Shown here: positions 36,927 through 46,650 of the stretch, piece after piece
Layout of the letters: the number at the start of each line of letters is the position of its first letter
Numbering within the stretch: the first letter of the stretch is position 1
From: an uncultured Eubacterium sp.
GTDB taxonomy: Bacteria; Bacillota; Clostridia; Oscillospirales; Acutalibacteraceae
Length of the DNA: 64,000 bases
Direction: 5' to 3'
Assembly: GCA_905233545.1 (NCBI GenBank)
Contig: CAJOEV010000010.1
Coordinates: 1 to 64,000, forward strand
Position numbers and translations under genes: made by a program
The notes under the pieces: generated by a model
The model's database searches: none
What the model was told of the DNA's origin: nothing
What the model saw: only the letters and a program-made list of their open reading frames with translations

Positions 36927-38585
36927 TTAATTATTTAGCAATTCCTCTGCTGATTGCAGAAGGTTATCGGTTATTTCAAGTCCGCCCATAATTCGTGCAA
37001 GTTCCTGTTTTCTCTGCTCGAAATCAAGCTGACTTACCTGAGTGTATGTGCGCTCATTTTCAAACTTTTTGCTGATTAACATATGACAGTCTGCAAGTGA
37101 TGCAATCTGAGCTGAATGAGTAACGCATATTACCTGCGTATGATTGCTGACTTCTTTAAGCTTCAAGCCAATCTTTCTGCTTGCTCTTCCGCTGACTCCT
37201 GTATCGATTTCATCAAAGATTAATGTTCCGACACTGTCGTTTTTCGCAATAATATTTTTTATAGCAAGCATTATTCTTGAAAGCTCACCGCCCGACGCTA
37301 TTTTTGAAAGCGGTTTCGGCGGTTCTCCGGGGTTTGTTGAAATCAGAAATTCAATTTTATCGAAGCCGTTGGACGACAAATTGCCTTTTTCAAAATTAAC
37401 AACAAACTCTATTTTCGGCATGTCAAGAAATATGAGCTGTTCCTTAACATCATTTTCAAGCTTTTTTGCAAGTGCTTTTCTGTAATCAGAAAGCTCCGAG
37501 GCAAGGTTGGCTGTTTTTTCAAACAGTCCGTCGTATTCAAGATTAAGCTTTTCAAGCTCTTCTTCAGAATTATCAAAGAGGCGTTTTCTTTCCTTAGCCT
37601 CCTCAAGATAATTAATAACTTCCTGTTCACTGTTTCCGTATTTTGAACAGAGATTATAAAGAAGATTCAGCCTTTCCTCAATCATTTCAAGCTCGTTTTC
37701 ACTGAAATCAATTGATGAAAGCTTTCCTTCTGCAATATCCTTAAGCTGTTCTGAAATATCGTTAACAGAAAATAGCAGTTCATTAATTTTATTAAAATCG
37801 CCGTCAAATTCAACAAGCGATTTGATTTCATTTTCTGCAGATGAAGCAAGCCCCTGAATACCCTGGGCTTCCTCATCACCGTTAACAAAAAGTAAAACCT
37901 TATTGAGCGCAGTGATAATTTCCTGCGAATTCAGTATGGTTTTCTTTCTGTTTTGAAGGTTTTCTATTTCGCCGACTTTTATATCCGAGCCCTCAATTTC
38001 TTTAATCTGATATTCGAGAATTTCAAGCTCTCTGTCTTTAGTATCGGCATCCGCGGTTAAGGCTTTGAGTCTTTTTCGAACAGAAACAAGCTCTTTAAAG
38101 CATTCTTTGTATCTATTCAATATTTCGCCGTTGTTCCCCGTCATATCAAGGAATTTATAGTGATAATCGGCATTTAAAAGAGCCTGGGAATCATGCTGTC
38201 CGTGAATGTTAACAAGAAGCATTCCGACTTCTTTTAACATTGAAACGGTAACGCTTCTTCCGTTAATCTTGCAGGACGATTTACCCTGGGATGATACTTT
38301 TCTTGATATAATCAAAACATCATCTTCATTTGGAATATCAAAATCATCAAGCTTTTTGCAGACATCATTGCTGATTTCTTCAAAGCAGGCGCATACATAA
38401 GCACTGTTTGCACCGTTTCTTACAAGCTCCTTTGATGTTCTTTCACCGAGCACGGCGCTGATTGAATCAACAAGAATTGATTTTCCTGCACCGGTTTCAC
38501 CTGTCAAAGCATTAAATCCCGATGAAAAATCTATTTCAGCTTTTTCAATAACCGCAATATTTTCAATATTCAGGCTTTTAAGCAT
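36927..38585 (-). CDS. recN: DNA repair protein RecN
   Basis: 552-aa SMC-like ATPase acting early at double-strand breaks. Walker A GETGAGKS at 29-36; a coiled-coil middle (about 150-360) with Leu/Glu/Lys heptads; signature ASGGELSRIMLAIK; and Walker B LIFDEIDTGVSG near the C-terminus. It overlaps argR by 8 nt, the usual argR-recN pair of Firmicutes. Confidence 0.96.
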   Translation of the reverse strand: MLKSLNIENIAVIEKAEIDFSSGFNALTGETGAGKSILVDSISAVLGERTSKELVRNGANSAYVCACFEEISNDVCKKLDDFDIPNEDDVLIISRKVSSQGKSSCKINGRSVTVSMLKEVGMLLVNIHGQHDSQALLNADYHYKFLDMTGNNGEILNRYKECFKELVSVRKRLKALTADADTKDRELEILEYQIKEIEGSDIKVGEIENLQNRKKTILNSQEIITALNKVLLFVNGDEEAQGIQGLASSAENEIKSLVEFDGDFNKINELLFSVNDISEQLKDIAEGKLSSIDFSENELEMIEERLNLLYNLCSKYGNSEQEVINYLEEAKERKRLFDNSEEELEKLNLEYDGLFEKTANLASELSDYRKALAKKLENDVKEQLIFLDMPKIEFVVNFEKGNLSSNGFDKIEFLISTNPGEPPKPLSKIASGGELSRIMLAIKNIIAKNDSVGTLIFDEIDTGVSGRASRKIGLKLKEVSNHTQVICVTHSAQIASLADCHMLISKKFENERTYTQVSQLDFEQRKQELARIMGGLEITDNLLQSAEELLNN

Positions 38586-39030
38586 TTAACATCTTCCTCA
38601 ACTTATATGCAAAATTCATTGCAACATTTTCATTTATGCAGAGAATAAAAATAGTATCGTCACCCGCAATCGAGCCCAAAACCTCTTCAATGTTCATGGA
38701 GTCAATTGCAGCACAAACGGCATTTGCCATTCCCGAAAAGCATTTAATAACAACAATATTCATTGCATAATCAATGCTTATAATTGATTCGTTAAATATT
38801 CCGCCCGCGCGTCTCTGAGCATTTTCGTTGCTTCTTTTTCCGGTTGAATAATAGTATTTTCCCTTTGAGGATAATTCCTTTACAAGACGCAGTTCCTTTA
38901 TATCTCTTGATATTGTAGCCTGCGTTACTTCAAATCCGTATTCGCCGAGAAGTGCCTGAAGCTCTTCCTGAGTTTCAATTTCATTTGAAGATATTATTTC
39001 TATTATTTTCGCCTGTCTGCGCTTTTTCAT
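38578..39030 (-). CDS. argR: Arginine repressor ArgR
   Basis: 150 aa, standard size. An N-terminal winged HTH has TQEELQALLGEYGFEVTQATISRDI, and the C-terminal arginine-binding/hexamer domain has GSIAGDDTIFILC. It controls arginine metabolism, and in the neighbourhood typically sits between nadK and recN, as here. The gap to nadK is 4 nt. Confidence 0.95.
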   Translation of the reverse strand: MKKRRQAKIIEIISSNEIETQEELQALLGEYGFEVTQATISRDIKELRLVKELSSKGKYYYSTGKRSNENAQRRAGGIFNESIISIDYAMNIVVIKCFSGMANAVCAAIDSMNIEEVLGSIAGDDTIFILCINENVAMNFAYKLRKMLNA

Positions 39031-44842: not shown

Positions 44843-45754
44843 TTATTCCGATTTCAGACTTGCAAAAACTGCAAGTCCTGCCGCATTATCAAGTGAAAAC
44901 TCGGGCTCGGCAAAACCCGCTTCATATTTATTAAGGATTGTTTCTCTTAGGAGTGAGTTTGAAGCAACACCTCCCGAGAAAACAACCGGAAGATTTCCGT
45001 ATTTTAATGTAATTGAGTCAAGCATTGATAAAACGGTTTTGGCAACATAACTCAATGCAAATTTTGCAATATCTTGCTTTGCCTCTCCTCTGTTAACCAT
45101 CTGCTTAACTTTATTTTCAACACCGCTCATTGAGCAGTTGCCGTCAATTATTGTAGGCTTAATCTTAAATTCTGCGGTACTTGTTCTTGACAGCTCGTCA
45201 AGTTCTTTTCCGCAGGGAAAATCAATACCGAGCAAAACACCCGTTCTGTCAACAGCTTGTCCCGCTTTTAAATCAAGACTCTCAGAAATTATCTCTGCAG
45301 CAATTATTTCATCTTTATCGGGTTTTACCAGAAGCGCTTCAGTTGTTCCGCCGCTGAGATGAAATGCAACAAATTCTCTGTTTATCAATTCAAGCTTATC
45401 GCACGAATAAAGTGCAGCAAGAATATGACCGACCTGATGTGAGGTTTCAAACAGCGGTACTCCCGCGCCCTTAGCAAGAGCTAAAGCGGCATTTCTTCCA
45501 ACAAGAAAACAAGGCATATAGCTTCCTTCAATGTTTCTCGGTTTTGTGCTTACGCCTACAGCCTTCAGTGATTGAAAATCAATACTTTCAAGCAGATTCG
45601 GAAGATTTACTGTATGCTGAAATACTGCATCACTCTGACGAAGTCCTCTTTCACCGCTTCTAACGCTGAGCATAATCTTATGATTCTCAATATATCCGTT
45701 TGTATAAACGGCGGCGGAGGTTGTATAGTTGCTTGTATCAAAGCCCGCAAACAT
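44843..45754 (-). CDS. TsaD/Kae1-like (peptidase M22 family) paralogue
   Basis: 303 aa of the ASKHA fold. Phosphate-1 region GFDTSNYTTS (4-13), metal pair H106-Q-V-G-H110, nucleotide loops FHLSGGTTEALLV and VVFSGGVASNSLL, and terminal DNAAGLAVFA. It is shorter than true TsaD (about 340 aa) and its metal motif is SHQVGH, so it is likely the clostridial paralogue rather than the tRNA t6A enzyme. No TsaB, TsaE or RimI lies nearby. The function is unknown. ATG overlaps the nusB stop by 1 nt. Confidence 0.8.
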   Translation of the reverse strand: MFAGFDTSNYTTSAAVYTNGYIENHKIMLSVRSGERGLRQSDAVFQHTVNLPNLLESIDFQSLKAVGVSTKPRNIEGSYMPCFLVGRNAALALAKGAGVPLFETSHQVGHILAALYSCDKLELINREFVAFHLSGGTTEALLVKPDKDEIIAAEIISESLDLKAGQAVDRTGVLLGIDFPCGKELDELSRTSTAEFKIKPTIIDGNCSMSGVENKVKQMVNRGEAKQDIAKFALSYVAKTVLSMLDSITLKYGNLPVVFSGGVASNSLLRETILNKYEAGFAEPEFSLDNAAGLAVFASLKSE

Positions 45755-46146
45755 TAACTTCTGCTCCTCATATATGCTCCGAGAATGCCGTTAATGAAAC
45801 CTGCATCCTCCTGTGAAGAATACTTCTTGGCAAGTTCAACCGCTTCATTAATAGCAACTGAATCGGGAACATCGTCAATATAATTAATTTCATAAACCGC
45901 AAGCCTGAGAATTGAAATATTAACCTTCGATATTCTGTTAAGCTTCCAGCCCGTTGAATAATTCGATATTATTTCATCAAGAGCTTCCTTATTCTCACAA
46001 ACTCCAAAAAACAGCTGTTTTGAATAATCACCTATCTGCGTTTCTTCTTCAATTGCTGTTTCAAATATTTCCTCGGGTGTGCTGTCTGAAAATAAAGACT
46101 GAAAAATCAGGGCAAATGCCTGTTCTCTTTGTTTATATCTGTTCAT
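45754..46146 (-). CDS. nusB: Transcription antitermination factor NusB
   Basis: 130 aa, all-helical NusB fold with REQAFALIFQSLF at the N-terminus and DSVAINEAVELAKKYSSQEDAGFINGILG at the C-terminus. With NusE it binds boxA of rRNA. Its SD GGAGTA begins directly after the U-run of an intrinsic terminator (46157-46188), an unusual arrangement for this gene. Confidence 0.95.
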   Translation of the reverse strand: MNRYKQREQAFALIFQSLFSDSTPEEIFETAIEEETQIGDYSKQLFFGVCENKEALDEIISNYSTGWKLNRISKVNISILRLAVYEINYIDDVPDSVAINEAVELAKKYSSQEDAGFINGILGAYMRSRS

Positions 46147-46156
46147 TTATTACTCC

Positions 46157-46188
46157 AAAAAAGCCGACTGATAGTTATAGCAGCCGGC
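46157..46188 (-). terminator. Terminator/attenuator directly before nusB
   Basis: In the minus-strand RNA, GCCGGCUG pairs with CAGUCGGC (46181-46188 with 46163-46170, one G-U), with a 10-nt loop, then six uridines (46157-46162). The next bases, GGAGTA, are the SD of nusB. No promoter fits between this hairpin and nusB, so nusB and the genes after it need read-through or a promoter I could not see. Confidence 0.82.
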
Positions 46189-46196
46189 ATTAAAAA

Positions 46197-46589
46197 TCAG
46201 TTTTCAGTTTCTTTAGGTTCATTTGTGCCGGCGTTCTCATCAAATTCTATTCCTGCAATAATAACATTAACTTTTGAAACAAGTCTTCCCGTCATATTCT
46301 GAATAGATTCTTTAACATTCTGCTGAACATTCTGAGCAACAGTTTTTATCTTTTTATTTGGTTCAATATTAAGATAAATGCTGACATTAATATCGTCGCC
46401 GTTCTGAGATATTCTGACGGGGCTCATAACTTTAAGACTGCCCTTTTTGATTGTGCTGAACACATCAAACGGTCTGTTGGAAAATGAACCAACGCCCTCA
46501 ACATCCTTTGCCGCATTTATTGCAATAGAAGAAATTACTTCCTCGGAAATAACAAGATTACCTTTTTCGTTTGTTGATGTGACTTCCAT
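46197..46589 (-). CDS. Asp23/Gls24 family envelope stress protein
   Basis: 130 aa with the DUF322 core: NLVISEEVISSIAINAAKDVEGVGSF, then a middle of alternating beta strands and VQQNVKESIQNMTGRLVSKVNVIIAGIEF. Members bind the membrane or its anchors and take part in envelope stress. It has its own extended -10 promoter and a strong GGAGGCGG SD. It is the first gene of the nusB-xse-dxs block in most Clostridia. Confidence 0.93.
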   Translation of the reverse strand: MEVTSTNEKGNLVISEEVISSIAINAAKDVEGVGSFSNRPFDVFSTIKKGSLKVMSPVRISQNGDDINVSIYLNIEPNKKIKTVAQNVQQNVKESIQNMTGRLVSKVNVIIAGIEFDENAGTNEPKETEN

Positions 46590-46621: not shown

Positions 46622-46650
46622 ATTATATCATAAGGCGAATAAATATACAA
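46622..46650 (-). promoter_or_regulatory. Promoter of the Asp23 family gene
   Basis: Minus strand: TTGTAT (46645-46650), 17-nt spacer ending TGA, TATAAT (46622-46627). It lies after the spoIIIAH stop and uncouples the housekeeping block from the sporulation operon. Confidence 0.8.

Follow-up and report, generated by a model that had tools for sequence, protein, structure and literature searches.

The question raised by this locus is how nusB is expressed from behind an intrinsic terminator that runs directly into its ribosome binding site. In the window, the whole 64,000-nucleotide stretch of DNA analysed here, a GC-rich hairpin with an 8-bp stem, a U6 tract and the nusB Shine-Dalgarno (SD) sequence follow one another without gaps on the minus strand (46188-46151). 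Read on that strand from the stop codon of the preceding asp23-like gene (46199-46197), the order is TTTTTAAT GCCGGCTG CTATAACTAT CAGTCGGC TTTTTT GGAGTAATAA ATG. The features of the region, from promoter to nusB, are:

46622-46650, minus strand: unit promoter TTGTATATTTATTCGCCTTATGATATAAT with an extended -10, upstream of asp23 (pattern and conservation)
46197-46589, minus strand: asp23-like gene, 130 aa, an optional member of the unit (open reading frame; AmaP model at 3e-5, below cut-off)
46226-46232, minus strand: candidate antiterminator arm 1, GCCGGCA, within asp23 codons (nascent-RNA folding)
46201-46220, minus strand: boxA-like site GAACCTAAAGAAACTGAAAA in the final asp23 codons (conservation, likeness to rRNA boxA)
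46183-46189, minus strand: candidate antiterminator arm 2, TGCCGGC, overlapping the 5' arm of the terminator (its pairing excludes the terminator hairpin)
46163-46188, minus strand: intrinsic terminator hairpin GCCGGCTG-CTATAACTAT-CAGTCGGC (sequence, folding, comparison)
46157-46162, minus strand: U6 tract of the terminator (sequence)
46151-46156, minus strand: nusB SD, GGAGTA, abutting the U tract (sequence)
45754-46146, minus strand: nusB, 130 aa (NCBIfam TIGR01951, 129.1 bits against a cut-off of 88.35)

The gene preceding nusB is presumably asp23, a name given from knowledge of the family, the AmaP match being weak. The hairpin starts only 8 nt after the asp23 stop and folds at -13.3 kcal/mol (z -4.8; 0/200 shuffles as good), and the U tract comes directly after it, as in intrinsic terminators generally. 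The initial annotation, which had described a hairpin and U6 tract fused to the nusB SD, was therefore correct on this point. The loop is 10 nt, above the size limit of the terminator pattern scanner, hence the structure was unlisted there; an Rfam search of the window gave no match above the gathering threshold. The nusB ATG at 46146 lies 16 nt past the hairpin, so there is no room for a promoter in between. An extended -10-like string in the terminator loop, TGCTATAAC, was considered as a promoter and rejected, being absent from the nearest relative (L147).

The initial annotation had named comparison of the hairpin in relatives as a check, and the hairpin is conserved there. Across the window's genus 56 nusB loci were compared, and each has a hairpin trailed by a U-rich stretch ahead of the gene; the median energy is -15 kcal/mol, the median hairpin-to-ATG gap is 19 nt, and 25 distinct stem sequences occur. 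A loose terminator definition was positive in 23-32% of control windows, and a strict one was used instead. The strict test finds a terminator within 85 nt of nusB in 48/56 genus loci; the rates in control windows drawn from these loci and in shuffles are 38/2159 and 0.2%, respectively. Outside the genus but within the family, the strict figure is 10/24 against 29/840. The hairpins aligned with too many gaps (MAFFT) for pairs to be counted across loci, and each stem was judged by its own pairs.

Transcription of the unit appears to start upstream of asp23. The promoter pattern at 46622-46650 has its sole exact match in the 2.23-Mb genome at this site, and the same promoter stands before asp23 in most genus loci. 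A sigma-70 scan did not see it, its -35 fitting at 3/6 positions only. Because the unit has its own promoter before asp23, nusB need not rely on the upstream spoIIIA genes. Six relatives lack asp23 in the entire genome but retain the other parts of the unit (the asp23 search was positive in 5/5 control genomes), and in them the promoter lies directly before the nusB leader. The order at these six loci is promoter, leader, terminator, nusB, which places the terminator in the leader of the gene it would regulate, as in an attenuator. In a NusB tree, which is poorly resolved, there are about five changes between the asp23-linked and own-promoter states.

These observations bear on the earlier proposal that no promoter fits and that nusB and the xseA-ispA-dxs block are expressed only by reading through the terminator. 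The first part holds for the 16-nt terminator-nusB interval and fails upstream of asp23, where the conserved promoter was found. As to the second, nusB transcripts begun upstream must cross the terminator, but for the xseA-ispA-dxs block internal promoters are possible; the sigma-70 scan gave 13 internal promoter-like sites against 10.8 expected, i.e., chance level. The gene run is asp23-like, nusB, then tsaD-like, xseA, ispA, dxs, tlyA, nadK, argR and recN, names without a profile match having been assigned by reading translations. The TsaD-like protein directly after nusB (44843-45754, minus strand) scores 100 bits, far under the TsaD cut-off of 296, and may be a divergent paralogue.

Upstream of the terminator, the last codons of asp23 hold a sequence resembling rRNA boxA, the site that NusB-S10 binds in rRNA. 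The consensus is xACCTnnnGAAACTGA; in the window asp23 ends GAA CCT AAA GAA ACT GAA AAC TGA, and in many relatives GAACCTTGTGAAACTGAAGA. The motif occupies the same position in 46 of the 49 asp23-nusB loci of the genus. Nineteen of these loci were inspected once the motif had been defined; all have the terminator and 17 the motif. The pattern ACCTNNNGAAACTGA occurs once in the window genome, at this site. Since the window's own assembly lacks a 16S rRNA, the rRNA boxA sequences were taken from genus member L058 (GGACCTTGAAAATTGAACAA upstream of 16S, GTACCTTGAAAACTGAATAC upstream of 23S) and from other genomes. With a matrix built from rRNA boxA only, the top match in most leaders was the asp23-tail motif, and leaders outscored control windows (rank test 7e-26, the loci not being independent). 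The window site, ACCTAAAGAAACTGA, is weak alone, scoring 1.2 bits in this matrix, under the 95% level of the control windows (2.2), while matches in many relatives are strong, reaching 13 bits. Compared with rRNA boxA, the sites inside asp23 have one extra base. In further genera of the family (L203, L207, L216-L219, L225), nusB is preceded by its own promoter, a TTTGAAAA-type boxA and a terminator. A boxA-like site conserved across species ahead of a Nus-factor gene, as expected for boxA-mediated autoregulation, is found for nusB. From its sequence and position the asp23-tail site is likely the sensor for nusB control. NusB feedback, as the initial annotation had proposed, remains the best reading of the locus, but this likely sensor had been overlooked.

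Autoregulation through boxA is known for suhB in E. coli; predictions extend it to rpsJ and, in Pseudomonas, to a nusB that follows ribH (PMC5725501). At suhB the outcome includes Rho-dependent termination. Among the 38 genus genomes examined that are 95% complete or better, none has a Rho above the family cut-off (best score 48 bits against 509), so the suhB-type Rho mechanism is inapplicable as such and the intrinsic terminator is the controllable step. Folding of the nascent RNA indicated how that step might be controlled. In the segment 46234-46174, before the 3' arm of the terminator is made, a 7-bp GCCGGCA/UGCCGGC helix forms with 46189-46183 (-11.5 kcal/mol, z -3.0), leaving boxA in an open loop; later the terminator prevails. 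With such an arrangement a protein bound at boxA could select one helix or the other, much as L10(L12)4 does at rplJL (PMC4538822). The folding values are for the window. Across the genus the signal is modest, with a mean z of about -1 and a helix in 80% of loci against 68% of shuffles, and an antiterminator helix in the nusB leader is put forward as a suggestion of the folding models.

We consider it probable that NusB-S10 regulates nusB here by autogenous transcription attenuation, and that the control is negative. Sequence and comparison establish the terminator, the boxA-like site and the promoter, their conservation together and their persistence where asp23 is lost; binding by NusB-S10, the sign of the control and the antiterminator are predicted. 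RNA polymerase would start upstream of asp23 (in the asp23-less relatives, immediately ahead of nusB) and would make the boxA-like RNA before reaching the terminator and its U tract, which leads straight into the nusB SD. We infer that NusB and ribosomal protein S10 bind this nascent RNA as they do in rRNA, and that the bound complex sets the share of polymerases reading through into nusB. When NusB-S10 exceeded the nascent rRNA boxA, the leader site would be occupied, the GCCGGCA/UGCCGGC helix would be disfavoured and the terminator would form; rRNA synthesis would titrate NusB-S10 and allow more read-through into nusB. The arrangement suggests a stop-or-go switch by which NusB sets its own production without Rho in these gut bacteria.

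The possibility must be considered that the sign is opposite, i.e., that NusB-S10 at boxA lets polymerase pass the terminator by processive antitermination, so that nusB is on only where NusB is present. The boxA is directly 5' of the terminator, Nus factors are classically known for antitermination, and where Rho is lacking intrinsic terminators are the sole recognisable termination signals to antagonise. Self-activation, however, would give a latch rather than homeostasis, the characterised boxA autoregulation, that of suhB, represses (PMC5725501), and the mutually exclusive helix in the window would be superfluous. We regard positive feedback as unlikely, though the strongest of the alternatives, and negative control as the most likely sign, because the boxA precedent is one of repression and the obvious benefit would be homeostasis in which rRNA competes for the complex.

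Control might instead be translational, with NusB-S10 at boxA denying ribosomes access to the nusB SD close by, and termination playing a secondary part. The suhB system offers a precedent (PMC5725501), and in some terminator-less relatives (L221, L224) a boxA is found near the SD. In the genus, however, the terminator lies between boxA and SD and is the most constant element (56/56), making this reading rather improbable as an account of the window. L221 and L224 themselves, with boxA-like GCACCTTAACA and GCACCTAAACA, respectively, near the nusB SD, have a suhB-like translational layout.

About as improbable, and if anything slightly more so, is a static, leaky terminator that fixes the ratio of asp23 to nusB expression, with the ACCT motif unrelated. 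Partial terminators within operons often tune stoichiometry, and a hairpin 8 nt past the asp23 stop is expected if polymerase outruns the ribosomes. But the hairpin stays with nusB in the asp23-less genomes, which have no upstream gene to balance, and the boxA-like motif is kept as RNA, shifting frame and leaving the gene.

The conservation of the motif as RNA is seen in several ways. The proline codon of the tail is CCT in 46/46 loci against a background of 38% (p 3e-20, a naive value that ignores kinship), preceded by GAA, GCA or GTA, always GNA, with the encoded residue varying among E, A and V. The motif stands just 3' of the asp23 stop codon in L023, is in a different frame in L208 (GCG AAC CTG GAG AAT TGA) and spans the stop codon in L210, and the six asp23-less genus genomes retain promoter, boxA-like site, terminator and nusB in order. 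On the strength of the codon bias, the motif's positions out of frame and over or past the stop, and its survival without asp23, the asp23-tail motif is judged to be conserved as RNA rather than as protein. The explanation that it is simply a conserved Asp23 C-terminus (E-P-x-E-T-E) with no RNA role, which draws on the motif being in frame and the peptide alike in most genus members, was dropped as highly improbable given that same codon bias, the constant G.A nucleotides, the frame shifts and the untranslated copies in L023 and the six asp23-less leaders.

Known boxA complexes of E. coli mainly affect Rho or translation, not intrinsic terminators. As a broader and more tentative proposal, somewhat short of an even chance in our estimate, NusB-S10 and boxA in Rho-less Bacillota may directly control an intrinsic terminator, with the sensor inside the last codons of the preceding gene and polymerase outrunning the ribosome. 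A boxA readable within translated asp23 would fit the runaway transcription described in Bacillota (PMC13323073). The role of NusB-S10-boxA in Rho-less bacteria is not obvious, given that its textbook job is to oppose Rho; if the proposal is true, the Nus complex would have a function independent of both Rho and λ N-type proteins. Nature has replicated such a case here: the complex's own gene carries boxA and an intrinsic terminator in genomes without Rho, which makes an effect on intrinsic termination directly testable. It also presents a regulatory RNA site inside a neighbour's coding sequence which in relatives lies outside the gene.

Several known systems resemble the nusB leader in part. 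The suhB type shares an rRNA-type boxA before a Nus-factor gene with inferred NusB-S10 feedback, but acts by translational repression and Rho-dependent termination in γ-proteobacteria (PMC5725501), whereas here boxA is followed by an intrinsic terminator in Rho-less Bacillota and, in the window's genus, lies within the last codons of the upstream gene. In B. subtilis rplJL, L10(L12)4 binds the leader as it does rRNA, and an intrinsic terminator is then favoured at the expense of an antiterminator; this too is autogenous transcription attenuation in a Firmicute, with another protein and RNA element, and with binding and in vitro termination shown (PMC4538822), whereas the evidence at nusB is comparative. 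The rimP-leader, a conserved premature terminator before rimP-nusA-infB for which Nus-factor feedback was suggested, likewise sets a conserved terminator ahead of a Nus-factor gene, but there the stem of the terminator itself carries the conserved motif (GGGc...gCCC), and no boxA is described (PMC2965389). That stem motif is absent here, the window stem being GCCGGCTG/CAGTCGGC and the genus having 25 different ones. The rpsJ motif of Peptostreptococcaceae (RLC-47-1), a leader candidate before rpsJ (S10/NusE), also precedes an antitermination-factor gene in Clostridia; it concerns a different gene, and the passage describing it mentions no boxA (PMC11109978). In the open-access literature we found no report of boxA plus an intrinsic terminator before nusB, of boxA in the preceding gene, of a nusB-boxA in Firmicutes, or of nusB together with asp23 or yqhY. 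The earlier remark that such feedback was not known to have been described for this family agrees with the literature found for this group and for an intrinsic terminator, though boxA autoregulation of Nus-factor genes is described in γ-proteobacteria (PMC5725501). The nusB leader would appear from its sequence to be a new arrangement of already known boxA autoregulation and attenuation.

Some loci depart from the common plan. In L022, L032, L033, L036, L159 and L165, 59-295 nt are inserted between terminator and nusB, and these gaps could hold a second promoter. L159 and L161 of the genus have the terminator and lack the boxA-like motif; in L159, with both the inserted stretch and no motif, nusB control may have been replaced. 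Ahead of nusB in L204, TAGGTGC stands 5' of a boxA-like GCACCTA and can base-pair with it; the pairing would mask the site. Finally, the asp23/nusB promoter (46622-46650, minus strand) overlaps an ArgR-box-like sequence, TGTATATTTATTC, L077 has a full TNTGNATWWWWATNCANA match close to its nusB promoter, and argR (38578-39030) is part of the same gene run as nusB; control of the asp23/nusB promoter by ArgR is possible on this sequence evidence.
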